Below, in pieces: positions 3,017 through 24,161 of a DNA stretch of 25,346 nt; within the stretch, counting starts at the first letter, position 1; each line of letters opens with the position of its first letter. The stretch comes from a virus: positions 1-25,346 of the IMG/VR virus record IMGVR_UViG_3300011116_000621, one strand, 5' to 3'. The notes beneath the pieces are model-generated. The model was not told the DNA's origin. It saw nothing but the letters and a program-made list of their open reading frames with translations, and made no database searches. Both the position numbers and the translations under genes were made by a program.

Positions 3017-4815
3017 TGGCTAAAGTCTCCCTAGTTCGTCGGTTAGGCGCAGGCATTAAAAGTTTTAGCGCTGGATTTGGATCTGGCATCAGCACGTTCC
3101 AACCGTACGAGGCCGCTGGATTTAGTCGCAAACGGCCAGTCATATACGGAGCGCATGCACGCGATTCCTCACTGGATTTAAGCGAATGGACAAGAGTAGA
3201 ACTTCTTAAGCTCGCTCGGCACATGTACAGGAACGTCGGCCTCATTAAAGGCGCTGTAGATTCAATCGCTGCCTATTCGGTAGGCCCAGGACTACGGCCA
3301 CAATATCGCGGTGCCGATGCTGAGTTTGGTAGATTGGCCGAGCAATATTGGCGTGATGTGGTGGCACCGAATCCAGAAGTAACAGGACGGATGACCTGGA
3401 CAGATCTGCTTTTAGCACTCAGCAGATCGATCGATGTAGACGGCGACGTGTTCGTTATTATGACCGATAAAGGAAAATTGCAAGTGGTTGAAGGACACAG
3501 AGTTTGCGAGGGAGATAATTATGAAAGCACGGACGGAGTGTTCGTCGGTAAAATGGGTGAACCCACTGCGTATTTATTGGAACTCGGAGAAACATACCGA
3601 AAGATTAGTTCAGATTTAGTAATTCACTTAATGGAAATGGAAAGGCCAGATCAGATCCGAGGAGGATCCAACCTGGCGAGAGCACTTAATCACGTGCGCG
3701 ACTTAAAACTTTTGGGCGAATTTGAGAAAGACGCATTAAAACTACAGGGATCAATCGCCGCGGTTATTACTTCTAATGAAGGCGATGCGCTTTCTGGCAG
3801 TGGCGGATTCTTTGGAAACATAGCCACTTCAGATCTCGGAGATAATTCCATTGCCCGCGAACAGATCACAAGCAGCGCCACCATTCCGCGGCTCGCACCA
3901 GGTGAAAAGATAGACATGGTTGCACCGAATCGGCCTAACAATGGATTCGAGCCATTCGCCAAGTTCCTAATTCGTGACGTAGCCATGGGCCTCGGCCTGC
4001 CGATTGAATTTGTTTACGATCCAGCCAGCGTTGGGGGGGCAGGGATGCGGTTTATTGTAGCGAAGGCACAGCGCAGATTTGAACAACGGCAAAGGCTTTT
4101 GATTGATCGATTCTGCAATCGCGTGTGGAGATATTTTATCGGTGGAGCTATCGCAAATGGCGATCTACCGCCAGCAGAAGATTACAGAAAAGTAAGCTGG
4201 CAGACTCCAAAGTCTTTGACCGTGGACGCCGGTCGTGAGGCACAGCAGGCACGAGAGGATTACAAGGCGGGCCTGATAAGCCTGCAAACCTACCACGGAG
4301 AGCTAGGAGAGGACTGGGTAGAACAAGTCGATCAGATTAAAGCTGAGCAAACATACATGAGTGGTGGGGTGGAAGTTTCACCACAACCTCTTATTGCAAA
4401 AATCGGTGAGGGTGGAGCCAGGTCTATTGCGGCAATCTTGCAATCGATTGGAACTGGTCAAATTACAGCCGAACAAGCAGAGGTTATTCTTGTATCAGTA
4501 TTTGGGTTAAGCAAAGAAGATGCTGTAAAAATAGCTCGTGGTGGTGCGGCCACACCGACGGCCAATGCAAATACTTCGATCACCAAAGAACCTAAAGCAG
4601 ACAACATTGCTACCGACAACCTTACGCCAACCGAAATTATCACAGATCCTAATCAACCAAACCCAAGCCCCGACAATGCGCCAGAAGAAATGCAGGCCGC
4701 AACTGAATCATTTATAATGCCCGACGCACCAGATTTTAACCTAAGCACTAAAGAGCTAAATATGATCGTGCAGGCATTGGGGATCGGTAAGTCAAAATCA
4801 AAAAAGAAAAAGTAA
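3016..4815 (+). CDS. Portal protein, lambda gpB family
   Basis: This 599-residue protein would form the dodecameric DNA channel at the unique capsid vertex. Family-typical stretches are ELLKLARHMYRNVGLIKGAVD near 60-85, the SIDVDGDVFV segment near 140 and the IRGGSNLARALNHVRDLK segment near 215-235. RDVAMGLGLPIEFVYD near 320 and RQRLLIDRFCNRVW near 360 complete the set. After about residue 440 the protein becomes low-complexity (Asn/Pro/Thr-rich) and ends in a poly-Lys tail (KSKSKKKK). That tail is longer than in lambda gpB and may be removed or may contact DNA or scaffold. Confidence 0.95.
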   Translation: MAKVSLVRRLGAGIKSFSAGFGSGISTFQPYEAAGFSRKRPVIYGAHARDSSLDLSEWTRVELLKLARHMYRNVGLIKGAVDSIAAYSVGPGLRPQYRGADAEFGRLAEQYWRDVVAPNPEVTGRMTWTDLLLALSRSIDVDGDVFVIMTDKGKLQVVEGHRVCEGDNYESTDGVFVGKMGEPTAYLLELGETYRKISSDLVIHLMEMERPDQIRGGSNLARALNHVRDLKLLGEFEKDALKLQGSIAAVITSNEGDALSGSGGFFGNIATSDLGDNSIAREQITSSATIPRLAPGEKIDMVAPNRPNNGFEPFAKFLIRDVAMGLGLPIEFVYDPASVGGAGMRFIVAKAQRRFEQRQRLLIDRFCNRVWRYFIGGAIANGDLPPAEDYRKVSWQTPKSLTVDAGREAQQAREDYKAGLISLQTYHGELGEDWVEQVDQIKAEQTYMSGGVEVSPQPLIAKIGEGGARSIAAILQSIGTGQITAEQAEVILVSVFGLSKEDAVKIARGGAATPTANANTSITKEPKADNIATDNLTPTEIITDPNQPNPSPDNAPEEMQAATESFIMPDAPDFNLSTKELNMIVQALGIGKSKSKKKK

Positions 4816-4816
4816 T

Positions 4817-4822
4817 TTGACA
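4817..4822 (+). promoter_or_regulatory. TTGACA start-proximal motif before the protease gene
   Basis: TTGACA begins 19 nt before ATG 4836. A second, imperfect copy (TTGACC, 4826) follows. It lies two bases after the portal stop codon, so it is intergenic. Confidence 0.5.
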
Positions 4823-4835
4823 CCTGTTGACCAGC

Positions 4836-5780
4836 ATGGCCAACAAACTCTCCAACGTATCCATTTTAACAGTAGGCGAGGCCAAGGGCCACAACCTACT
4901 GATCGATCAAACCTCACTCGAGCAAGCGCTAGCCGTAGCGCTGTCTATGAAACGCATCAAAGTGACCATGGGGCACGGTGCTGAAGTCTCTGGCATTCTC
5001 GGCTATATCGATGGATTTAAGATTGAAGGCGATCGCCTAATGGGTGATCTAACTCTGTTCAACACAAACGAAGCTCAATTTGTTCAGCATCTTGCAAACG
5101 TACTGCCTGAAGGATTTGGGCTATCTCTTACGTTTAGCGGAATACCCGAACAAGTAGCAGGCGATCGTTTTGCCAGGGTAACTGAAATCTACGATATCAG
5201 CGTTGTAAGCACTCCAGCTGCAAACCCGGCTGGGATGTTTTCTGCATTCACGGCAGTTGACATCAAAAAACTGCAAATGAACGAAGCATCTGTTGAAGTC
5301 AAAAAAGAGCTTAGCGAACCTGCCGTTGTGGCAGCTCCCGCAGCTGAAACTCCTGCAGTTGAAACTCCCGCAGTTGTCGAAGCACCGAAAGCCGAACTGG
5401 CCGAAGTGCCTGCCGACAAGCCTGCGGAAAAAATGGCAGAACCTACCTTGACCGACATCGCGGGGATGCTTGCGGAACTGCTCGCGCTGATGAAAGCTGA
5501 CGCAATTTCTGACGTTGTCGAAGCTCCCGAAATGCCATCTGAAGATATGGCGAAAAAAGAGATGAGCGCCATTCGGATATCCGACCTCGCAAAGATTGAA
5601 GAAAAGGCCGACGAAAAGGCCGTGACTACTTTGGAAAAAGCCAAGGCCGACGCTGCTGGCGCAGTGGCGGTTCCCGCTGAATCGAGCCAACCGCTCGGCC
5701 GGGCTGAGATCCTCACACAATTCAACGCGGAAAAGAATCCGACCCGTCGGTCGGAACTGCTCCGCAAACTCGGACTGTAA
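4836..5780 (+). CDS. Prohead protease with fused scaffold-like C-terminal half
   Basis: This 314-residue protein would mature the procapsid. The N-terminal 135 residues fit the phage serine-protease fold: H47 in VTMGHGAEVSG, S97 in GFGLSLTFSG, and an acidic strand EIYDISVVSTPAANP (117-131) near the end of the domain. Residues from about 140 to 280 are Ala/Glu/Pro/Lys-rich with predicted coils, as expected for an internal scaffold. A conserved-looking tail (RAEILTQFNAEKNPTRRSEL) ends the protein. The fusion mimics the lambda C/Nu3 arrangement in one polypeptide. A TTG nine bases upstream (4827) is an alternative start, but ATG 4836 fits the MANKL N-terminus better. Confidence 0.8.
   Translation: MANKLSNVSILTVGEAKGHNLLIDQTSLEQALAVALSMKRIKVTMGHGAEVSGILGYIDGFKIEGDRLMGDLTLFNTNEAQFVQHLANVLPEGFGLSLTFSGIPEQVAGDRFARVTEIYDISVVSTPAANPAGMFSAFTAVDIKKLQMNEASVEVKKELSEPAVVAAPAAETPAVETPAVVEAPKAELAEVPADKPAEKMAEPTLTDIAGMLAELLALMKADAISDVVEAPEMPSEDMAKKEMSAIRISDLAKIEEKADEKAVTTLEKAKADAAGAVAVPAESSQPLGRAEILTQFNAEKNPTRRSELLRKLGL
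5340..5376 (+). repeat. 15-bp tandem repeat in the scaffold region (2.5 copies)
   Basis: Units GCAGCTGAAACTCCT (5340) and GCAGTTGAAACTCCC (5355) are followed by a partial GCAGTTG (5370). They encode the repeat (A/V)ETPA in the flexible scaffold part. The two full units differ at two bases. Confidence 0.8.
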
Positions 5781-5805
5781 TCCAGTCCACTAGGAGAACA
5801 CTACA

Positions 5806-6696
5806 ATGGCCAACTCAATCGGAACAACGAATGCCAATGTAATCGCTCAGAGGGCTCTCGAGATCCTCGTGGCGGATTACAGCTTCCTCAAGAACTCAGT
5901 AACGAATTTCAGCAGCGAAGCGGCTAAATACAACGCGTCGATCTACACACACCGCATCTCTGCGACGACCGCACAGGACTACTCGCAGACCAACGGTTAT
6001 GTAGCGACCGCGACCACTCAGACAGACGTGCAGATCACTCTCAACAAGTTCAAGCACGTTTCCTACTCTGTGGACGATCAAGAGCGCACCAGCTCCAACA
6101 TCAACCTGATCGAGCGTTTCGCCGGCGCAGCCGCGCACGCCCTCGGCTTGCAAATGGTTGGGGATTTGTTGGCTCTCGTCACCTCCTCCACCTTCACCAG
6201 CGCATTGACGGTTGCTTCCAGCGCCTTCTCCTACCGCTCGGTAGTGTCGGCCGGAATTACCCTCAACAACAACAACGCCCCGGTCAACGGCCGGTACGCT
6301 GTTCTTAACCCCAGCTTCTACGGCGCTCTCTTGAACGACAGCACCGTCGTTGCAAATCCTCAGATCACCGGCGATCTCGTTCGCACGGCTGGGATTGGAA
6401 ACGTTGCTGGATTCAACATCAACCAGTACAGCGCAGTGCCTTCCAACAGCATCACGCTCGGCGGATTCTTCGCCCAGCAGGAAGCGTTGTTGATCGCGGC
6501 TCGCGTTCCTGAAGTTCCTACCGGCGTTCCCATCCCTGGGGACATTTCGGTTGTGACGGAACCCCGCACTGGCCTTTCCGTCCAAGTTCGTGAGAACTAC
6601 GACGTGGTTAAGGGCATGCTGCAACGCACCTACGCTCTGATCTACGGCGTGAAAGCCGGAGAGCCGAACAGCCTCGTGCGTATCAACGGTAGCTAA
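5806..6696 (+). CDS. Major capsid protein (HK97 fold, inferred)
   Basis: The 296-residue product is the likely shell subunit. It starts with GTTNANVIAQRALEIL, an N-terminal pattern common in coat proteins of this type. It contains VDDQERTSSNINLIERF near 90-106 (spine-helix region) and ends with a beta-rich part around VVTEPRTGLSVQVRENYDVVKG. It has a good SD (AGGAG at 5792-5796, about 10 nt before ATG), one of the few in the window, consistent with high expression. It lies directly after the protease/scaffold and is followed by a strong hairpin. Codons are noticeably more GC-ending than in the neighbouring genes, again fitting high expression. Confidence 0.92.
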   Translation: MANSIGTTNANVIAQRALEILVADYSFLKNSVTNFSSEAAKYNASIYTHRISATTAQDYSQTNGYVATATTQTDVQITLNKFKHVSYSVDDQERTSSNINLIERFAGAAAHALGLQMVGDLLALVTSSTFTSALTVASSAFSYRSVVSAGITLNNNNAPVNGRYAVLNPSFYGALLNDSTVVANPQITGDLVRTAGIGNVAGFNINQYSAVPSNSITLGGFFAQQEALLIAARVPEVPTGVPIPGDISVVTEPRTGLSVQVRENYDVVKGMLQRTYALIYGVKAGEPNSLVRINGS

Positions 6697-6707
6697 TTCA
6701 CTCGGGG

Positions 6708-6741
6708 AGGGCGGTGGGCTGAAAGGCTCACCGCCCTTTCC
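6708..6741 (+). terminator. Strong hairpin after the capsid gene, probable (attenuating) terminator
   Basis: AGGGCGGTG (6708-6716) pairs with CACCGCCCT (6729-6737); an inner G-T and GC pairs leave a small TGAAAG loop. TTTCC follows at 6737-6741. The short T run suggests partial termination or an mRNA-stabilising 3' end for capsid mRNA rather than a full stop, since tail genes follow on the same strand. Confidence 0.75.
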
Positions 6742-6748
6742 ACTTTAA

Positions 6749-6756
6749 GAAATCCT
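6749..6756 (+). promoter_or_regulatory. GAAATCCT start-proximal motif after the capsid hairpin
   Basis: GAAATCCT begins 11 nt before ATG 6760 and directly follows the capsid hairpin. It replaces a recognisable SD. It is one of three such hairpin-plus-motif units. Confidence 0.4.
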
Positions 6757-6759
6757 CTC

Positions 6760-7059
6760 ATGTCTGAATTTACTGAATGTCTTAAGGAAAGTCTGGCCGC
6801 TCTATACGATCAAACTGGCACGGCCGCCACTATCGGATCCACAGGCGTCACTGGAATCCTGTCTGCAATAAGCCGAAAAGAGAACGTGGATCTTGGCGGG
6901 TTTGATTTGGATCTAAACTCTACCTTCACCATTGACGTGGCGAACCTATCCACCACTCCCACCATTGGATCTATTCTGCTGGCCAACTCAGTCAGCTATC
7001 GGGTGGCATCGATTGATACTTCCGTCGGCAGTTACGTGCTTGGGTTGCGAGAGGTTTAG
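6760..7059 (+). CDS. Head-tail joining protein, gpFII-like (by position)
   Basis: This 99-residue, beta-rich protein lies just after the capsid gene, the place of lambda FI/FII. The strand pattern FTIDVANLSTTPTIGSILLANSVSYRVASI, ending GSYVLGLREV, resembles small head-completion proteins that make the tail attachment surface. It is the last recognisable head gene before the five-gene metabolic cassette, so it marks the left border of that insertion. Function is inferred from size and order. Confidence 0.6.
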   Translation: MSEFTECLKESLAALYDQTGTAATIGSTGVTGILSAISRKENVDLGGFDLDLNSTFTIDVANLSTTPTIGSILLANSVSYRVASIDTSVGSYVLGLREV

Positions 7060-7060
7060 A

Positions 7061-8746
7061 ATGACTACTCGAAATCCTAAAATCTCCATCTACATGATCG
7101 CCGGGCACGAGGCGCAATTTATCGACCGCTGCCTTACCGCATTTAAGCCATACTGCGACGAGCTGGTCGTGTGCATTGCCCAGGGCGCTCGGCCTGACGA
7201 TGGCACGCGGGCGATAGCGGAGAAGTCGGGCGCAAAGATAGTCGAATACAAAAACGCACCTGCAGGGGCGAGCTGGCCCCACGTCGATAACTTTGCCGCT
7301 GCCCGCAACACGGCACTGGATGCCTGCACGGGCGACTATGCGGTATGGGTGGATTGCGATGACTTGCCACATAAAGACCTCAAAAACGCTCTTAAAAGGG
7401 GCGTGGAAGCGTTTGAACAGAATCCTAAGCTCGGCATCTATGCAGGCGTATATAACGTCATTAACGCCTCTTTACGGCCCGTACGTGAGAGGATGGTGAG
7501 GCGTATAGACGGCGTATGGTCTGGAAAGTGGCACTATGCCGTACATGAGGCGCTATTGCCTAATGCTGGGCTGGAATCTGTAGGCGAGCAGGCGGTGTGG
7601 GTGGAGCATCACCCCGGCGGATATAAGCCAAACAGCGCCGATCGGAATCTCCGTATCCTGCAAGGCCAATTAAGCGAGGCGGGTAAGTACGCCTACTACT
7701 ACCAGCAGGAACTGTTCTTAGGAAATCGACGAGTTGAATCTGAACCGTGGTCACACGTTGCGGCCGTCTGGCCGGGACAAGAAGCGACGCTGGCATACGA
7801 GGCGGCATGCAATCAGGCCACAGCTACGCAAGATCGCAATGTTCGGATTAGCCTATACCAAAAGGCACATCAGATGAACCCTGGGCGCAGGGAAGCGATC
7901 TACTATTTAGCCAGGGAAGAGGCCAGCGTCGGCGCATGGTTACAGGCTTATCACTTGCTTAAGTCTGCAATGGTTCAACCCGATCCTGGTATAAAAATCT
8001 GGAACGCCCAGCGCACCGTGTACGACTTTGAGTGCATCGATCTTTACCTAGCGGCTTGCAAAGCTGTGGGCGATACCACCGAAGCGCAGAAAATCGAGAA
8101 CATGTGGAGGGCACAGAAGCCAGTCAAGATTACCGTCTGTCACGCAACGCGAGGACGCCCACAAGAAGCCATCAACGCTCGTATCCTTTGGATGAAAAAG
8201 GCGGCCGATCCAGCCTCGATTGAGTGGATCTACTCAGTCGATGATGATGATCCAAAAGCCGACATGCTAAAAAATTGGGGAACTGTTAAAGGCAAAGGTG
8301 GATGCGTTGCAGCTTGGAACAGAGCGGCAGAAGCGGCTCGCGGGGAAATCATCATCCAAGGCTCCGACGATTGGGATCCTCCGCTGCATTGGGACACGAT
8401 CATTACACAACGGCTGGGCGATCTAAGTAAACCTGCTGTGCTTGCAGTATCCGACGGTCATCGCAAAGACGATCTGCTTTGTATGGCGATTCTGACTAAA
8501 ACGCGACTAAAGGATCAGGGCGGAATGTTTGCGTCTGAATATGACGCATGCTCTGGAATTTTTAGCGACAACGAATTTTCTAAGCGAGCCGCATACGATG
8601 GCGTGATTATTCCTGCCAAAGACATCGTCTTTACCCACAATAATCCGCTCTTCACGGGCGCAGCACAGGACGCGGAATTTAAGCGCCATAACGCCAAGGA
8701 AAACTACGAGCTTGGCGAGAAGATATTTAAAGAACGTAACCCGTGA
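7061..8746 (+). CDS. Two-domain glycosyltransferase (GT-A + TPR-like linker + GT-A)
   Basis: The 561-residue product most likely transfers sugars from nucleotide-sugar donors. Domain 1 (about 5-180) is family-2-like: SIYMIAGHEAQFIDRCL at the start, DFAAARN-like VDNFAAARNTAL (75-86) and the metal-binding DCDD (98-101), resembling WaaE-type LPS-core glucosyltransferases. A helical TPR-like part follows (about 240-350). Domain 2 (about 356-530) begins KITVCHATRGRP and has a second acidic motif DDDD (394-397) and SDDW (435-438). ATG 7061 lies one base after the previous stop. An open upstream extension to 6932 overlaps the joiner gene and is unlikely. The stop overlaps the next gene's GTG. Confidence 0.85.
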   Translation: MTTRNPKISIYMIAGHEAQFIDRCLTAFKPYCDELVVCIAQGARPDDGTRAIAEKSGAKIVEYKNAPAGASWPHVDNFAAARNTALDACTGDYAVWVDCDDLPHKDLKNALKRGVEAFEQNPKLGIYAGVYNVINASLRPVRERMVRRIDGVWSGKWHYAVHEALLPNAGLESVGEQAVWVEHHPGGYKPNSADRNLRILQGQLSEAGKYAYYYQQELFLGNRRVESEPWSHVAAVWPGQEATLAYEAACNQATATQDRNVRISLYQKAHQMNPGRREAIYYLAREEASVGAWLQAYHLLKSAMVQPDPGIKIWNAQRTVYDFECIDLYLAACKAVGDTTEAQKIENMWRAQKPVKITVCHATRGRPQEAINARILWMKKAADPASIEWIYSVDDDDPKADMLKNWGTVKGKGGCVAAWNRAAEAARGEIIIQGSDDWDPPLHWDTIITQRLGDLSKPAVLAVSDGHRKDDLLCMAILTKTRLKDQGGMFASEYDACSGIFSDNEFSKRAAYDGVIIPAKDIVFTHNNPLFTGAAQDAEFKRHNAKENYELGEKIFKERNP

Positions 8747-9507
8747 TCCATACCCACAATGCATTACGGCTGGGCGACAACCTGGTACAACTAAACTTTC
8801 TGCGTCGGCTATGCTTGCAGAATCCTGATCTTAAAATTACGCACTACCATAATCCAGAGCTGTGCAAGTTTGAGGAAATTGACGCCTTGCGTAGCGACAT
8901 ATCCTTACGGTTACGCATTCGCCCCATCAGCGAAGCGCCTGCCGATAGTATTGATTCTTGGCGCAACACGGGCGGATATTGGGAGCGTCACCCCGATAAA
9001 CTAAACTTTGCTCAATTTCATCTGTGCTGGTTTGAGGAGCTGGCCAGTAGAATGTGCGTTAAAAATCCAATCCGCAAAGTTGAAGATCTATTATTTGATT
9101 ATTGGGCGTTGGATTCTTTTATGTCGATGACGCCAGAGTGCGACATAGTAGTCATCAATTCACCTGGACTGTCTGGTCAATTTACAAACTTTAACCATGA
9201 CGATTTTCGCAACCTAGTATCTAAACTAGTTAGCAAGGGTCATCGGGTAATCAGCACCGTCGATACTGGATTATGCCCAGCGTTTGATAATAAAAATGTA
9301 ACCTGGATAGGTGCGACGGCTGCCAAAGCAAAAGCCGTGATTGGAACATCCACCGGGCCGAGCTGGCCGTGCCTAAACGTTCACAACAAGGATGCCTTCC
9401 ACTTGCTTTGTGCTGATACAGAAACAGTCATATTTACCCAACGCGGGCAGATGGCTAGGAGCGCATTTCACGCTCTACATATTTTGGAAGAGGAAGGGTT
9501 GCTGTGA
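8743..9507 (+). CDS. GT-B-like glycosyltransferase-family protein (heptosyltransferase-like)
   Basis: This 254-residue protein starts THNALRLGDNLVQLNFLRRL, the glycine-containing first loop seen in ADP-heptose/GT9-type and related GT-B proteins. Its second half has a Rossmann-like pattern: DIVVINSPG near 134, GHRVISTVDTG near 166, and AKAVIGTSTGPSWPCLNVH near 196, the usual donor-binding 'T.TGP.WP' style loop. It is shorter than typical GT9 enzymes (about 350 aa), so one half-domain is reduced. It begins with GTG in a GTGA overlap with the preceding stop. Activity is not certain; it may be a non-catalytic partner of the upstream enzyme. Confidence 0.65.
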   Translation: MIHTHNALRLGDNLVQLNFLRRLCLQNPDLKITHYHNPELCKFEEIDALRSDISLRLRIRPISEAPADSIDSWRNTGGYWERHPDKLNFAQFHLCWFEELASRMCVKNPIRKVEDLLFDYWALDSFMSMTPECDIVVINSPGLSGQFTNFNHDDFRNLVSKLVSKGHRVISTVDTGLCPAFDNKNVTWIGATAAKAKAVIGTSTGPSWPCLNVHNKDAFHLLCADTETVIFTQRGQMARSAFHALHILEEEGLL

Positions 9508-10022
9508 AGCAAGAGATGACGCAGGCAATGGATTTACTGGCGGCCGATCCAGCCGTCAGGTTTATAGGGTATGGAATAAAGATAGGCGGGCGGGCAGCGG
9601 GGACGCTTAATCACGTATCAGATTCACAACTCATCGAAACGCCCGTCGCTGAAAATCTAATGGTGGGACTAGCCACCGGCCTGAGTTTGGCAGGGCTGAA
9701 ACCCGTTGTCTTTATTGAACGAATGGATTTTATTTTGAATGCGCTAGATGCGATCGTGAATCACCTGGGCGCTGCGGCTAGGATAAGTTGCGGTCGATTT
9801 TATCCAGCAGCCATTATCAGAGTAGTTATCGGAAATAAAAACAAGGCGCTTTTTACAGGGCCAACCCATACGCAGGATTTTACCCAGGCAATTAAGCAAA
9901 TGGTTGACTTTCCAGTCATTGAACTAAAAAAAGAAACTGTAATCGGCGAATATCAAACAGCACTAGACGGATTGAGATGGGGTAGATCCACCATGCTTGT
10001 CGAGCGAAAGGATGAGTGGTGA
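9504..10022 (+). CDS. Stand-alone transketolase/E1-beta-type Pyr domain
   Basis: The 172-residue product matches the pyrimidine-binding domain of TPP enzymes (transketolase or 2-oxoacid dehydrogenase E1-beta). Visible hallmarks are MTQAMD...DPAVRFIGYG, the ETPVAENLMVGLATGLSLAG block with E50 as the Glu expected to activate the TPP pyrimidine, VVFIERMDFILNALDAIVNH, and HTQDF (122-126). The C-terminal third domain of E1-beta is absent; full E1-beta is about 325 aa. It starts GTG in a GTGA overlap. It should need the PP-domain protein at 11107 to form an active site. Together they may make or break a C-C bond next to a keto group. Confidence 0.85.
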   Translation: MKQEMTQAMDLLAADPAVRFIGYGIKIGGRAAGTLNHVSDSQLIETPVAENLMVGLATGLSLAGLKPVVFIERMDFILNALDAIVNHLGAAARISCGRFYPAAIIRVVIGNKNKALFTGPTHTQDFTQAIKQMVDFPVIELKKETVIGEYQTALDGLRWGRSTMLVERKDEW

Positions 10023-11110
10023 AGCAAAATAAATACAGCGATTACAAAATCTTTTCGTTTCCAGATAAAATAGCCAGCTTTCGGGACGATATTATCACCG
10101 CGCCCATCTACGTGCGGATTAAACCGACAAATATCTGCAATCACGCCTGCCGTTTCTGCGTCTATTCTGACGGCACAACAAGGCCAAAGGATCGGCCTGA
10201 TTTGCATCTGCAAGCAGGAATGCACTCCAGCATGAACGAGCGGGATGTGATGCCACGAGATAAGGCGCTGGAACTAATCGACGATCTGGCAACTATTGGA
10301 ACAAAAGCCGTCACGTTTAGCGGTGGCGGAGAACCTTTGCTGCATAAAGACATCGTGGAGATTATGACTAAGACAGTTTCGTCTGGTTTAAATCTGTCAA
10401 TTATTACCAACGGTCAACTACTTGCAGGGGAAAGGGCGGAAGTATTGGGCAACGCAAAGTGGGTTAGGATTTCAATGGACTACACAAGCGCAGAACAGAT
10501 GGCGTCGAGCCGTAACGTGCCCGACAGATCGTTTGATTCGGTGATGCAAAACATAAAAAACTTTTCAAACACTAAAACGGAAAGCTGTGATCTTGGGATT
10601 AACTTTATTATTACTCGTTACAATTACGAGGGATTGGTTCCGTTTGCCAAACAACTCAAGGATGCGGGCGTAAGTAACGTTCGATTTTCGCCCGTCTACG
10701 TTCAGAACTTTAAGGAATATCACAATACAATCGCGACTAGGGTCAGGGAACAACTGGCCGAGTGCCAATCATTCTGTGACGACGACTTTACCATTAACAC
10801 AACCTATGATCTGGATAGTCCAAGCAAGTCGCCTGTCAGGCCATTCCATCGATGTCTTTATGCTCAGGCCGTGTGCGTTGTCGGTGCGGATCTAAATATC
10901 TACGCATGCCACAACACTGCGTACAGCGATCACGGCCGCATTGGATCAATAAAAGAGCAATCGTTTAAACAGGCTTGGTTTAGCGAGGAAGTGCGTAAAT
11001 GGCATAAGACGTTTAACCCTGGCGTCAGTTGCCTGCACGAGTGTGCGAATCACGCCAAAGTTGCTCTATTTGAAAGGCTGGCCACGGATAGCCACGACGC
11101 TTTTGTATGA
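10019..11110 (+). CDS. Radical SAM protein with SPASM-like C-terminal Cys cluster
   Basis: The 363-residue product carries the radical SAM cluster motif CNHACRFC (C40, C44, C47; CxxxCxxC), the SAM-contact GGGEP (102-106) and the ITNGQLL strand near 129. The C-terminal part has C279, C286, C297, C338 and C342 in a pattern like the auxiliary-cluster region of SPASM/twitch enzymes. It would use 5'-deoxyadenosyl radical chemistry on a sugar, peptide or related substrate. GTG codons at 10016 and 10019 are both possible; 10019 gives the same GTGA overlap as the two upstream genes. It sits between the two halves of the TPP enzyme, which argues for a shared pathway. Confidence 0.9.
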   Translation: MKQNKYSDYKIFSFPDKIASFRDDIITAPIYVRIKPTNICNHACRFCVYSDGTTRPKDRPDLHLQAGMHSSMNERDVMPRDKALELIDDLATIGTKAVTFSGGGEPLLHKDIVEIMTKTVSSGLNLSIITNGQLLAGERAEVLGNAKWVRISMDYTSAEQMASSRNVPDRSFDSVMQNIKNFSNTKTESCDLGINFIITRYNYEGLVPFAKQLKDAGVSNVRFSPVYVQNFKEYHNTIATRVREQLAECQSFCDDDFTINTTYDLDSPSKSPVRPFHRCLYAQAVCVVGADLNIYACHNTAYSDHGRIGSIKEQSFKQAWFSEEVRKWHKTFNPGVSCLHECANHAKVALFERLATDSHDAFV

Positions 11111-11721
11111 ACAAACAGGATCTGATTGATTTTGAATTGAGGATCAAAGCTCTGTTTGAGCAGGGCAAACTGCCTTATTTGATTCACCTATGCGGCGGGA
11201 ATGAAGATCAACTTATCGAGATATTTAAAGACATTAAGCCAGGCGATTGGATTTTCTCTAGCCATAGATCCCACTATCATTACCTACTGGCTGGCGGAGA
11301 TCCAGATGCGCTTGAGCAGATGATTAAAGAAGGTCGCTCTATGTTTGTATTTGACCGAAAGTTGAATTTCTACACTTCCAGCGTGTTGGCTGGCACATGC
11401 GGGATAGCGGCCGGAGTGGCGCATACACTTAAAGAACAGGGAAGCGCGGAAAAGGTATGGTGCTTCTTAGGCGATGGCGCAGAGGACGAGGGCCATTTTT
11501 ACGAAGCCGTGAACTACGTGGCTGGGGCAGATCTACCCTGTACATTTATTATTGAGGATAACGATCGCTCCGTGGACACGCCAAAGGCCGCCAGGGGAAA
11601 GGCCACGATGACTTGGCCTGATTGCGTAAAGCGATATCACTACACCCCAACATTTCCGCACGGTGGCGCAGGTTGTAAAACCATGGTCACATTTGATCCC
11701 GCGATCCGTCCGATCTGGTGA
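11107..11721 (+). CDS. Stand-alone transketolase/E1-alpha-type TPP-binding (PP) domain
   Basis: The 204-residue product matches E1-alpha/transketolase-N PP domains. HRSHYHYLLAGGD (53-65) resembles the E1-alpha 'fRsH..yLa.G' segment. The TPP/Mg motif is GDGAEDEG (122-129) with the distal Asn in IIEDNDRSVDT (N152), spaced as expected for GDG-x(25-30)-N. Typical E1-alpha is over 320 aa, so the C-terminal part is missing or has been shed. ATG overlaps the preceding TGA as ATGA. It is the likely partner of the Pyr-domain protein at 9504 and the last gene of the cassette before tail genes resume. Confidence 0.85.
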   Translation: MNKQDLIDFELRIKALFEQGKLPYLIHLCGGNEDQLIEIFKDIKPGDWIFSSHRSHYHYLLAGGDPDALEQMIKEGRSMFVFDRKLNFYTSSVLAGTCGIAAGVAHTLKEQGSAEKVWCFLGDGAEDEGHFYEAVNYVAGADLPCTFIIEDNDRSVDTPKAARGKATMTWPDCVKRYHYTPTFPHGGAGCKTMVTFDPAIRPIW

Positions 11722-11738
11722 CAAAAGGCGTCTAGAAT

Positions 11739-12185
11739 ATGCCAGCTGTCACCATGCTCGATCGTTTAATTGAAGCTGCTTTTCAGGAGCTTCTATCTGC
11801 AACCGTCACCGGGCCTACCTATCACCTTTCGCACGACAAAACGGAAAACGTGCCGCCTGCGATCATCATTAAAGCTAGCCTGGGAACGGAAGAACCAGTA
11901 CGCGGATCTGGCGTTTTTAGCATCCCGGTTGAAATTATGGTGGATGATTCTTATGACGATATAACCGTTGAGGCTCACACTCAAAAATGCTCCAAGATCC
12001 TGCAGTGCTTTTACGATTCTACTAGCCTGTCATTCAGGCTTAATGCCACAACGGCGATTGGATCAGCCCGTACCTATAGCGCAAAACTGGAATCTAGCGA
12101 AGCCAGCGCCAATAATGAAGAACGCTCTTACACGCAAAACTATAAACTTACTGTTATCGCCTACCCTAATTCCATCGCCAGTTGA
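11739..12185 (+). CDS. Tail terminator / tail completion protein (putative, gpU/gpZ position)
   Basis: This 148-residue alpha/beta protein starts with an amphipathic helix (TMLDRLIEAAFQELL) and alternates strands with a long helix (EAHTQKCSKILQCFYD). The C-terminal strands (ERSYTQNYKLTVIAYP) are typical of tail-terminator folds. It precedes the tube-like gene, matching the lambda U-V order. A TGACA sequence that includes the cassette's last stop lies 20 nt upstream of the ATG. No enzymatic motif is visible. Confidence 0.55.
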   Translation: MPAVTMLDRLIEAAFQELLSATVTGPTYHLSHDKTENVPPAIIIKASLGTEEPVRGSGVFSIPVEIMVDDSYDDITVEAHTQKCSKILQCFYDSTSLSFRLNATTAIGSARTYSAKLESSEASANNEERSYTQNYKLTVIAYPNSIAS

Positions 12186-23104: not shown

Positions 23105-23415
23105 CGCCCGAACACGAAAAGCATCTGGCAGGCATCCTACGCGATTTAACCAGGGATCTAGACGCCAAGTACCGTAAAGGGCAGGAGGAGCACGGCGGAG
23201 CGTTGTGGCGTAGGCCCGTGTGGAAGGATGCGTGGGACGAGATACTGGATCTATGCACCTACCATCACACGTTAAAGATGCAGCTCTCCGTGATAGCCGA
23301 GATCGCACTGATCGGGGCCAGCGACGAAAGCGTAGTGGCGGCTCAATCGCGGGAAAGTTGCCGTCAGATTTTAGCTGTGCTGGAAGGATTCCCGTCAGCG
23401 GCAGACAAAAAGTGA
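23101..23415 (+). CDS. MazG-like phage nucleotide pyrophosphohydrolase-related protein (tentative)
   Basis: The 104-residue all-helical product contains KYRKGQEEHGG (24-33) and DEILDLCTYHH (46-56). This spacing of Glu/Asp residues resembles the metal-binding helices of MazG-like enzymes that hydrolyse (d)NTPs. Two GTG starts fit; 23101 gives the recurrent GTGA overlap with the endolysin stop, 23089 would extend it by four residues. Substrate cannot be deduced. Confidence 0.55.
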   Translation: MTPEHEKHLAGILRDLTRDLDAKYRKGQEEHGGALWRRPVWKDAWDEILDLCTYHHTLKMQLSVIAEIALIGASDESVVAAQSRESCRQILAVLEGFPSAADKK

Positions 23416-24161
23416 AAGTCATCCGCAAGTGGAAACGGTGGCTGGCGGTGAGCTGTAGCCACGGACACCTTGCGAATGCGGCCGCCTGCAAAGCTGCCTT
23501 AGAGATGAAGCGCCGGTGGCGGCCAGACGCCGATTCAATCCTACACCTGGGCGATTTTGTCGATCTGTCTGGGCTAATGGGTAGCGCAAGAAAAGATCCA
23601 GACTCGCCCGAACGCACCGCATCCATCCGCGAGGACTTCGATGCTGGACTTAATTTCGTTCGAGAATTGGCGCCACGCTACATCTTTGAGGGCAACCACG
23701 AGCACCGTCTAACGGCTCTACAATACTCGCCTAGCGCAATCGTGGCTCACTGCTGCATGTCCGCCAAGTCGGAGATCTACAACATGTGCAAGGATCTAAA
23801 GGCAAAGTATATCCCTTACGACATAGAGACAGGATGGCGGGATCTGGGCGGGACGGCGTTCGGCCACGGGTTTATGTTTTCAGAATCAGCCGTGCGCGAC
23901 CACGTAGAGATGACTAGAAAGCCTGTCGTCATAGGCCACTTGCACCGGGTAGATCGAGTGGCAGGCCGCAGCATCGGTGCGCCCGTGGGCTGGTCGATCG
24001 GCTGCCTAGCCGATATTCCCAGCATGCACTACGCCCGGCGCCAGCGATCGGTTACCAGATGGCAGCACGGAGTGGCGTGGGGCGAGTACGTAGAAGGCGG
24101 GCAAGGATGCACCGTGAACGTGCTCTCGCCAGTAGGAGGCGTATGGCGTTACCCAGTGTAA
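23412..24161 (+). CDS. Calcineurin-like metallophosphoesterase with atypical first motif
   Basis: The 249-residue product has LGDFVD (46-51), GNHE (94-97), a GHG (151-153) and GHLH (175-178), the four later metal-binding motifs of the family. The first motif reads SCSHGH (14-19), lacking the usual Asp of D-x-H. It might hydrolyse a phosphodiester or monoester in host or phage nucleic acid or a signalling nucleotide. GTG 23412 overlaps the TGA of the previous gene. The open frame back to 23220 lies over the MazG-like gene and is not used. Confidence 0.85.
   Translation: MKVIRKWKRWLAVSCSHGHLANAAACKAALEMKRRWRPDADSILHLGDFVDLSGLMGSARKDPDSPERTASIREDFDAGLNFVRELAPRYIFEGNHEHRLTALQYSPSAIVAHCCMSAKSEIYNMCKDLKAKYIPYDIETGWRDLGGTAFGHGFMFSESAVRDHVEMTRKPVVIGHLHRVDRVAGRSIGAPVGWSIGCLADIPSMHYARRQRSVTRWQHGVAWGEYVEGGQGCTVNVLSPVGGVWRYPV

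Follow-up and report, generated by a model that had tools for sequence, protein, structure and literature searches.

What does a block of sugar-related genes do between the head and tail genes of a phage? The question is raised by IMG/VR record IMGVR_UViG_3300011116_000621, a single viral record (a 25.3-kb viral contig), whose full 25,346 bases we analyzed and refer to as the window. Five overlapping and intact open reading frames (ORFs), ORF1 to ORF5, lie on its plus strand at positions 7061-8746, 8743-9507, 9504-10022, 10016-11110, and 11107-11721, with successive overlaps of 4, 4, 7, and 4 bases. They are predicted to encode two glycosyltransferases (GTs), the pyrimidine-binding (Pyr) domain of a thiamine pyrophosphate (TPP) enzyme, a radical S-adenosylmethionine (SAM) enzyme, and the pyrophosphate-binding (PP) domain of a TPP enzyme. 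A preliminary description had listed these ORFs and overlaps and assigned GT, Pyr, radical SAM, and PP domains, which are borne out by Pfam, PHROGs, and AlphaFold2 (AF2) models; its reading of the genes as a glycan cassette also holds, and glycan synthesis is well supported. Our best explanation, to which as a whole we give an even chance of being right, is a late-expressed glycosylation slot that adds a sugar extended by a carbon-carbon bond to a virion protein.

Results

A constant glycosyltransferase and exchangeable cargo

The cassette is bordered upstream by an FII-like head-tail joining gene (6760..7059, plus strand), the ORF adjoining the major capsid protein (MCP) gene and 75 to 94% conserved among relatives, and downstream by a tail-terminator-like gene (11739..12185, plus strand) recognized by position and synteny. 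For comparison of this slot, loci were fetched with the capsid protein, which yielded 61 distinct close relatives (distinct capsid genes). The relatives are freshwater-type viruses of bacteria, most of them recorded as metagenomic contigs; the locus sets used throughout consist of the best 80 matches per scan, and their frequencies are not population estimates. In every relative contig that spans the FII-like gene to the tail terminator, ORF1 follows directly after the FII-like gene, and no empty slot was found among the MCP relatives spanning it. The cassette is thus not, as first described, a five-gene set inserted into an otherwise empty border, since the GT is fixed there in relatives and it is the cargo behind it that varies. 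In the window this cargo slot, recognized from pairwise breakpoints and five cargo types, extends on the plus strand from the GT stop to the start of the tail terminator (8747..11738).

At least five interchangeable cargo types (A to E) follow the fixed GT among relatives. Cargo A, the window's own, comprises genes for a GT9-like protein, Pyr, a radical SAM enzyme, and PP; cargo B, for a GT9-like protein, a different, transketolase-type split PP and Pyr pair, a methyltransferase, and a radical SAM enzyme; cargo C, for a methyltransferase and a GT9-like protein; cargo D, for a GT9-like protein and a methyltransferase different from that of cargo C; and cargo E, for a DUF5672 protein, a methyltransferase, and a GT9-like protein. 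We call the GT9-like proteins of cargoes C to E related to ORF2 because they share the LGD motif, the sole basis for doing so: profile comparison of ORF2 with the GT9-like proteins of other cargoes finds agreement at this N-terminal motif only, and we do not claim a single family.

Phages whose capsid genes are up to 97% identical carry different cargoes. On a DNA tree of the 61 distinct capsid genes, cargo type changes 19 times, compared to a mean of 22.1 after shuffling and a possible minimum of 4; cargo is exchanged almost at random with respect to capsid phylogeny, and these shuffles and trees are evidence of repeated exchange rather than of its cause. In most pairs homology is lost at most about 5 bases from the ORF1 stop and is regained at most about 6 bases from the tail-terminator start, from which it follows that ORF1 is constant and that the cargo is exchanged like a cassette.

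Predicted activities of the two glycosyltransferases

ORF1 (7061..8746, plus strand) matches Pfam GT2 (1.3e-13) and PHROG 13126/14945. Its AF2 model (predicted local distance difference test [pLDDT] score of 88.6) consists of a GT-A domain, a helical stretch, and a second GT-A domain, and 8 of 16 homologues have tetratricopeptide repeat (TPR) matches. The nearest solved sequence in the Protein Data Bank (PDB) is GmaR (2.5e-6), and the best Foldseek matches are the peptide S-glycosyltransferases SunS and ThuS (E of about 4e-16, with a low whole-chain TM score of about 0.3). ORF1 has the GT-A plus TPR architecture of polypeptide GT2-TPR enzymes of the SunS/GmaR kind, and these enzymes, its top structural and sequence matches among solved structures, share with it the TPR-like helical arrangement; it differs in its second, C-terminal GT-A domain and in an identity of about 15 to 17% in the fold match. 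Its score of 17 bits against the curated SunS cutoff of 350 makes this likeness structural only.

ORF2 (8743..9507, plus strand), a minimal protein of 254 amino acids, has no Pfam, PHROG, or NCBIfam match, and its AF2 model is confident (pLDDT of 95). The best Foldseek matches are the GT9 heptosyltransferases WaaC (5.8e-7), WaaF, and TibC (5.6e-5), with which ORF2 shares the fold and an N-terminal LGD motif that is invariant among homologues, although it is shorter than these proteins (which have about 320 amino acids) and reaches a TM score of only 0.61. We therefore narrow its earlier designation as GT-B-like to GT9-like: on its model, ORF2 is a probable GT9-fold (heptosyltransferase-fold) protein that lacks a sequence-family match.

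A minimal TPP enzyme split around a radical SAM gene

The two TPP domains are encoded on either side of the radical SAM gene. ORF3 (9504..10022, plus strand), the E1-beta-like Pyr domain, matches Pfam Transket_pyr (2e-6), E1-beta in the PDB (2e-15), and positions 240 to 403 of PHROG 34187 (1.2e-42). ORF5 (11107..11721, plus strand), the minimal E1-alpha-like PP domain, matches Pfam E1_dh (1.5e-17), pyruvate dehydrogenase (PDH) E1-alpha in the PDB (2e-19), and positions 13 to 194 of the same PHROG (7.6e-72), so that ORF5 and ORF3 together match the profile significantly over both halves. Among 23 PP homologues the GDG motif is invariant and its partner Asn nearly so, and the catalytic Glu50 is invariant in 21 Pyr homologues.

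In PDB sequence comparisons, the best matches to PP and Pyr come from PDH E1, followed by 1-deoxy-D-xylulose 5-phosphate (DXP) synthase, but their family scores lie far below the curated cutoffs (85 bits against 394 for E1-alpha and 29 against 466 for dxs). Like PDH E1, DXP synthase, and transketolase, the window enzyme is built of PP and Pyr domains in which the TPP motifs are conserved; unlike them, it is a minimal two-domain enzyme, with no Transketolase_C domain and no E2 partner. Neither an E2 acyltransferase (PF00198) nor Transketolase_C (PF02780) was found in any of 18 long relatives, whose records may be incomplete for E2, whereas controls for both were positive; the window Pyr protein itself has only 172 amino acids. 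These absences from the long relatives rule out a PDH-like complex. DXP synthase, transketolase, and YerE catalyze TPP-dependent decarboxylation or the formation of a carbon-carbon bond onto a carbonyl, which is established chemistry, and by analogy a stand-alone TPP enzyme without E2 would be expected to do one or the other. As a separate observation, the window Pyr protein has about 80 to 85% identity to those of most close relatives, and the adjacent radical SAM and PP proteins mostly 93 to 98%; the Pyr protein of L020 is an exception, at 94% identity.

ORF4 (10016..11110, plus strand) matches Pfam Radical_SAM (1.5e-18) and SPASM (7.8e-5), both above their cutoffs. Invariant among 13 homologues are the CxxxCxxC motif (C41, C45, and C48), a GGGEP motif (G103 to P107), and C280, C298, C339, and C343, and the last four cysteines would fit one auxiliary Fe-S cluster of the twitch/SPASM type. 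From these conserved residues, PP, Pyr, and the radical SAM protein look like working enzymes. The best PDB matches to ORF4 are sugar and cofactor enzymes, namely, BlsE (2.4e-11), MoaA, and DesII. BlsE and DesII are the closest solved sequences, and ORF4 has one auxiliary-cluster cysteine set, as in twitch enzymes, but the likeness amounts to only about 47 bits. Many radical SAM/SPASM maturases of NCBIfam match ORF4 weakly, and it lies far below every curated cutoff shown. In L057, a 199-kb viral contig, the 707-amino-acid radical SAM protein of a TPP locus (5142-7265) carries an intein-like insertion (...CFFCLVAGTRVVTENGE...) right after the first cluster-cysteine region.

One redox partner per TPP enzyme

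We grouped 271 fetched PP loci at 85% identity into 49 clusters, of which the window's own contains 142 loci and shows a recurring gene order. A window-type radical SAM gene accompanies the TPP enzyme in 18 clusters, a zinc alcohol dehydrogenase gene in 28, and other radical SAM genes in 3 (all cellular); none of the 49 has both a radical SAM enzyme and a zinc alcohol dehydrogenase. A profile search in all frames likewise found no dehydrogenase in the 18 radical SAM loci and no window-type radical SAM gene in the 28 dehydrogenase loci, with one distant radical SAM match at 47 bits in L283. The PP tree requires at least 4 (dehydrogenase) to 6 (radical SAM) changes of partner. In L111 a fused TPP enzyme of the cyanophage clade stands with a radical SAM protein 71% identical to the window's, and in cargo B the window-type radical SAM enzyme and GTs are kept and the TPP pair is different. 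Because a dehydrogenase has repeatedly taken the place of the radical SAM gene next to the same TPP enzyme, we propose that both perform the same oxidation; on these genomic grounds, the two look like functional equivalents. From this interchange alone, ORF4 may oxidize a sugar or cyclitol alcohol in the manner of BtrN, a radical SAM enzyme with which we compare it by analogy.

A hint as to which sugar is made comes from the neighbors of the dehydrogenase-type loci, where heptose-kinase-like genes occur in 10 of 28 clusters and one such gene, in L290, scores 352 bits, above the NCBIfam cutoff of 345 for HldE domain I. Together with the fold of ORF2, these genes suggest, as a lead, that the window sugar is heptose-like or branched. 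The heptose link is drawn from the kinase, nucleotidyltransferase, and epimerase part only: the "phosphoheptose isomerase" genes of cyanophage S-SM2 are unsupported as GmhA, SSM2_207 weakly matching a haloacid dehalogenase (HAD) phosphatase model. In L393, a gene resembling C5-cytosine methyltransferases (10603-11733) lies between the PP and Pyr genes, and in related loci the two genes are likewise separated by roughly 1 kb or more.

Distribution in viruses and cells

Homologues of PP are present in at least 567 viral stretches, among them a 735-kb phage, a 469-kb contig, and the cyanophages S-SM2 and P-TIM68. At least five cellular loci were found, all in glycan-type clusters, and the family occurs in 2 of 539 sampled cellular genomes (from two phyla, both of them search seeds), so its rarity in cells is an estimate. 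By this estimate phages carry the TPP family in abundance and cells only very rarely, and it appears to be a rare metabolic enzyme lineage that is chiefly viral and not a recent loan from hosts. The hundreds of viral contigs and the 2 of 539 cellular genomes rule out an assembly artifact or a misplaced host operon, one of the outcomes that would have spoken against the preliminary description. In L197, L198, and L201, loci of bacterial and archaeal metagenome-assembled genomes, the TPP enzyme is accompanied by a GT2 and by other radical SAM proteins, two or three per locus, and the TPP locus of L198 adjoins lipopolysaccharide (LPS)-export-like (lpt) genes.

The set recurs beside the gene for the major head protein even where the head proteins of the phages are unrelated, a recurrence that had been named in advance as support for a defined system: the cassette follows this gene in phages of at least four unrelated head families (PHROG 283/267, 1005, 617, and 771). 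The five genes are not, however, the one indivisible system first supposed; the unit consists of a constant GT with exchangeable cargo behind it, and the TPP-redox pair forms a separate module that is also found elsewhere. The examined TPP genes sit among genes for GTs, epimerases, nucleotidyltransferases, dehydrogenases, or methyltransferases. The cyanophage proteins of PHROG 34187 (S-SM2 and P-TIM68), annotated as "transketolase central region-containing protein," belong to the same TPP family and lie in sugar-gene islands; in them PP and Pyr are fused into a single chain and the partner is a zinc alcohol dehydrogenase, whereas in the window the halves are split around the radical SAM gene and in reverse order. 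LPS-type clusters of unknown function have been noted in cyanophages (PMC3037559). In one phage clade (L066, L070, L071, and L393), PP, Pyr, radical SAM, and GT2 genes lie beside RusA-type and recombination genes, away from structural genes. Just upstream of the TPP/GT cassette of L401 are two tandem genes (3325-5367) for 339-amino-acid proteins with GGD(S/T)TSTTGG-type repeats, possible Ser/Thr-rich acceptors.

Position in the late gene block

The window MCP (5806-6696) matches PHROG 283 (1.1e-31), and the nearest isolate MCPs are about 30% identical to it (Verrucomicrobia phage P8625). Neither border gene has a family match in Pfam or PHROG searches, although the L301 equivalent of the tail-terminator-like gene matches the PHROG 176 tail terminator. 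A single base separates the FII-like stop from the GT start, and 17 bases lie between the PP stop and the tail terminator. A scan for sigma-70-type sites found 3 promoter-like sites in the cassette, compared to 9.4 in shuffled sequences, and an independent promoter of this type is ruled out; the cassette genes are presumably transcribed late. No transmembrane segment was found in the cassette proteins, all of which are soluble. Genes for a metallophosphoesterase (PHROG 221; 23220-24161) and a VanY-type peptidase lie toward the 3' end of the window, where an integrase is weakly matched as well (0.0067).

Discussion

We favor a virion protein as the target because the late genes are gap-free, promoter-like sites are not in excess, ORF1 resembles polypeptide GTs, the proteins are soluble, and the cassette is placed after the MCP gene. 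The preliminary description, too, had favored virion decoration, which becomes the better-supported target through the GT likeness and the gap-free late operon; the acceptor is a presumed one. The fixed, cytoplasmic bidomain GT2-TPR enzyme would begin glycan synthesis, with a virion protein as the most likely acceptor; the exchangeable cargo would set the chemistry of the outer sugar. In the window's cargo, the radical SAM enzyme would oxidize an alcohol to a carbonyl, the step given to a zinc alcohol dehydrogenase in other phages; the TPP enzyme formed by Pyr and PP would add an acyl anion from a 2-oxo acid or ketose to the sugar carbonyl, as do DXP synthase, transketolase, and YerE; the new carbon-carbon bond would give a branched or higher-carbon (heptose-like) sugar; and the GT9-like enzyme would transfer this product. 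We infer the protein acceptor, the bond-forming chemistry, the order of the steps, and the identity of the sugar, and offer the exact chemistry of the cassette as a hypothesis.

Phage-encoded GTs decorate capsid and tail-tube subunits of mycobacteriophages (Freeman 2023, as cited in PMC12619734). A phage-encoded GT is common to both systems; the window differs in having a fixed bidomain GT and TPP/radical SAM cargo inside the head-tail block, and in the exchange of cargo between near-identical phages. The open-licence articles of PubMed Central contained no phage system combining a TPP enzyme, a radical SAM enzyme, and a GT, in agreement with the preliminary description, and no account of a TPP plus radical SAM or dehydrogenase module or of an exchangeable late slot.

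Several observations weigh against decoration of the virion with such a sugar. K4CP is among the next Foldseek hits for ORF1, and GT2 folds of the SunS/GmaR type also occur in polysaccharide synthases. ORF2 has Ser at the position of what we take to be the ADP-site Asp of WaaC. Heptose-kinase genes are found in none of the 18 radical SAM clusters, and for the window the link to heptose is indirect. Outside structural regions, too, the TPP-redox module is found, together with other GTs (in L066, in L393, and in cyanophage and large-phage sugar islands), so that virions are not in every case the destination of its product. Finally, 13 of the 18 long relatives encode a tyrosine integrase, and lysogenic conversion is possible in principle.

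An unlikely but substantial alternative is that the cassette modifies the host envelope. Like gtr operons, it would alter LPS or some other glycan of the cell surface while the phage infects the host or persists as a lysogen, leading to superinfection exclusion or serotype conversion. The relatives are often temperate, LPS-core enzymes have the same GT9/heptosyltransferase fold as ORF2, the homologues in cells belong to glycan clusters (one next to the lpt export genes of L198), and cyanophage versions are annotated as LPS clusters (PMC3037559). Fusion into the late operon, however, leaves no room for a promoter or terminator and makes expression in a lysogen unlikely; the fixed GT is nearest to polypeptide GTs, and placement beside MCP genes recurs. 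The key genes for gtr-like conversion are absent as well, with GtrA (PF04138) in none of the 18 long relatives, no flippase or membrane GT found, and no transmembrane segment in the cassette proteins. Hypermodification of phage DNA, with sugars on modified virion-DNA bases blocking host nucleases, we consider very improbable. Radical SAM enzymes occur in hypermodification pathways. Phage GTs can glycosylate DNA (Pyle 2024, as cited in PMC12619734), but the genes are late and away from replication genes, and the GT resembles peptide GTs. A homologue of thymidylate synthase or hydroxymethylase was found in none of the 18 long relatives, which removes the 5-hydroxymethyl-pyrimidine route, other base-modifying routes being not exhaustively excluded.

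We see only the faintest prospect that a radical SAM/SPASM protein and a SunS-like GT make a glycosylated, radically modified peptide (a ribosomally synthesized and posttranslationally modified peptide [RiPP]) or a metabolite released at lysis. The many weakly scoring NCBIfam radical SAM/SPASM maturases would accord with this, as would the glycosylation of a bacteriocin by SunS; against it, no match comes near a curated cutoff, the best PDB matches are sugar and cofactor enzymes, no small precursor gene is seen in the gap-free operon, and the fact that an alcohol dehydrogenase takes the place of the radical SAM enzyme elsewhere is in keeping with oxidation of a sugar, not with maturation of a peptide. 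Equally remote is support of host metabolism, with the TPP enzyme feeding central carbon metabolism rather than a glycan. Cyanophages do carry pentose-phosphate and carbon-metabolism genes (PMC3037559), and the cyanophage annotation reads "transketolase central region," but the examined TPP genes sit among sugar genes, there is no E2 partner, and the family is very rare in cells.

Returning to virion glycosylation, we tentatively suggest, as a broader view that we hold with some doubt, a largely virus-borne pathway in which a minimal TPP carboligase, its acceptor supplied by a radical SAM enzyme or a zinc alcohol dehydrogenase, places C-branched or higher-carbon sugars on particles through a serotype-like slot. 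If decoration of the virion is correct, the slot would be a virion "serotype" locus, with one attaching enzyme and cargo swapped among near-identical phages like bacterial O-antigen loci, and would indicate that the particle surface is under strong selection (for instance, from grazers or antibodies or for receptor masking or environmental stability). A role and a chemistry would be assigned to PHROG 34187, which is listed as of "unknown function," and the one-partner rule, with its repeated switches, provides a direct and testable function for an uncharacterized radical SAM family.

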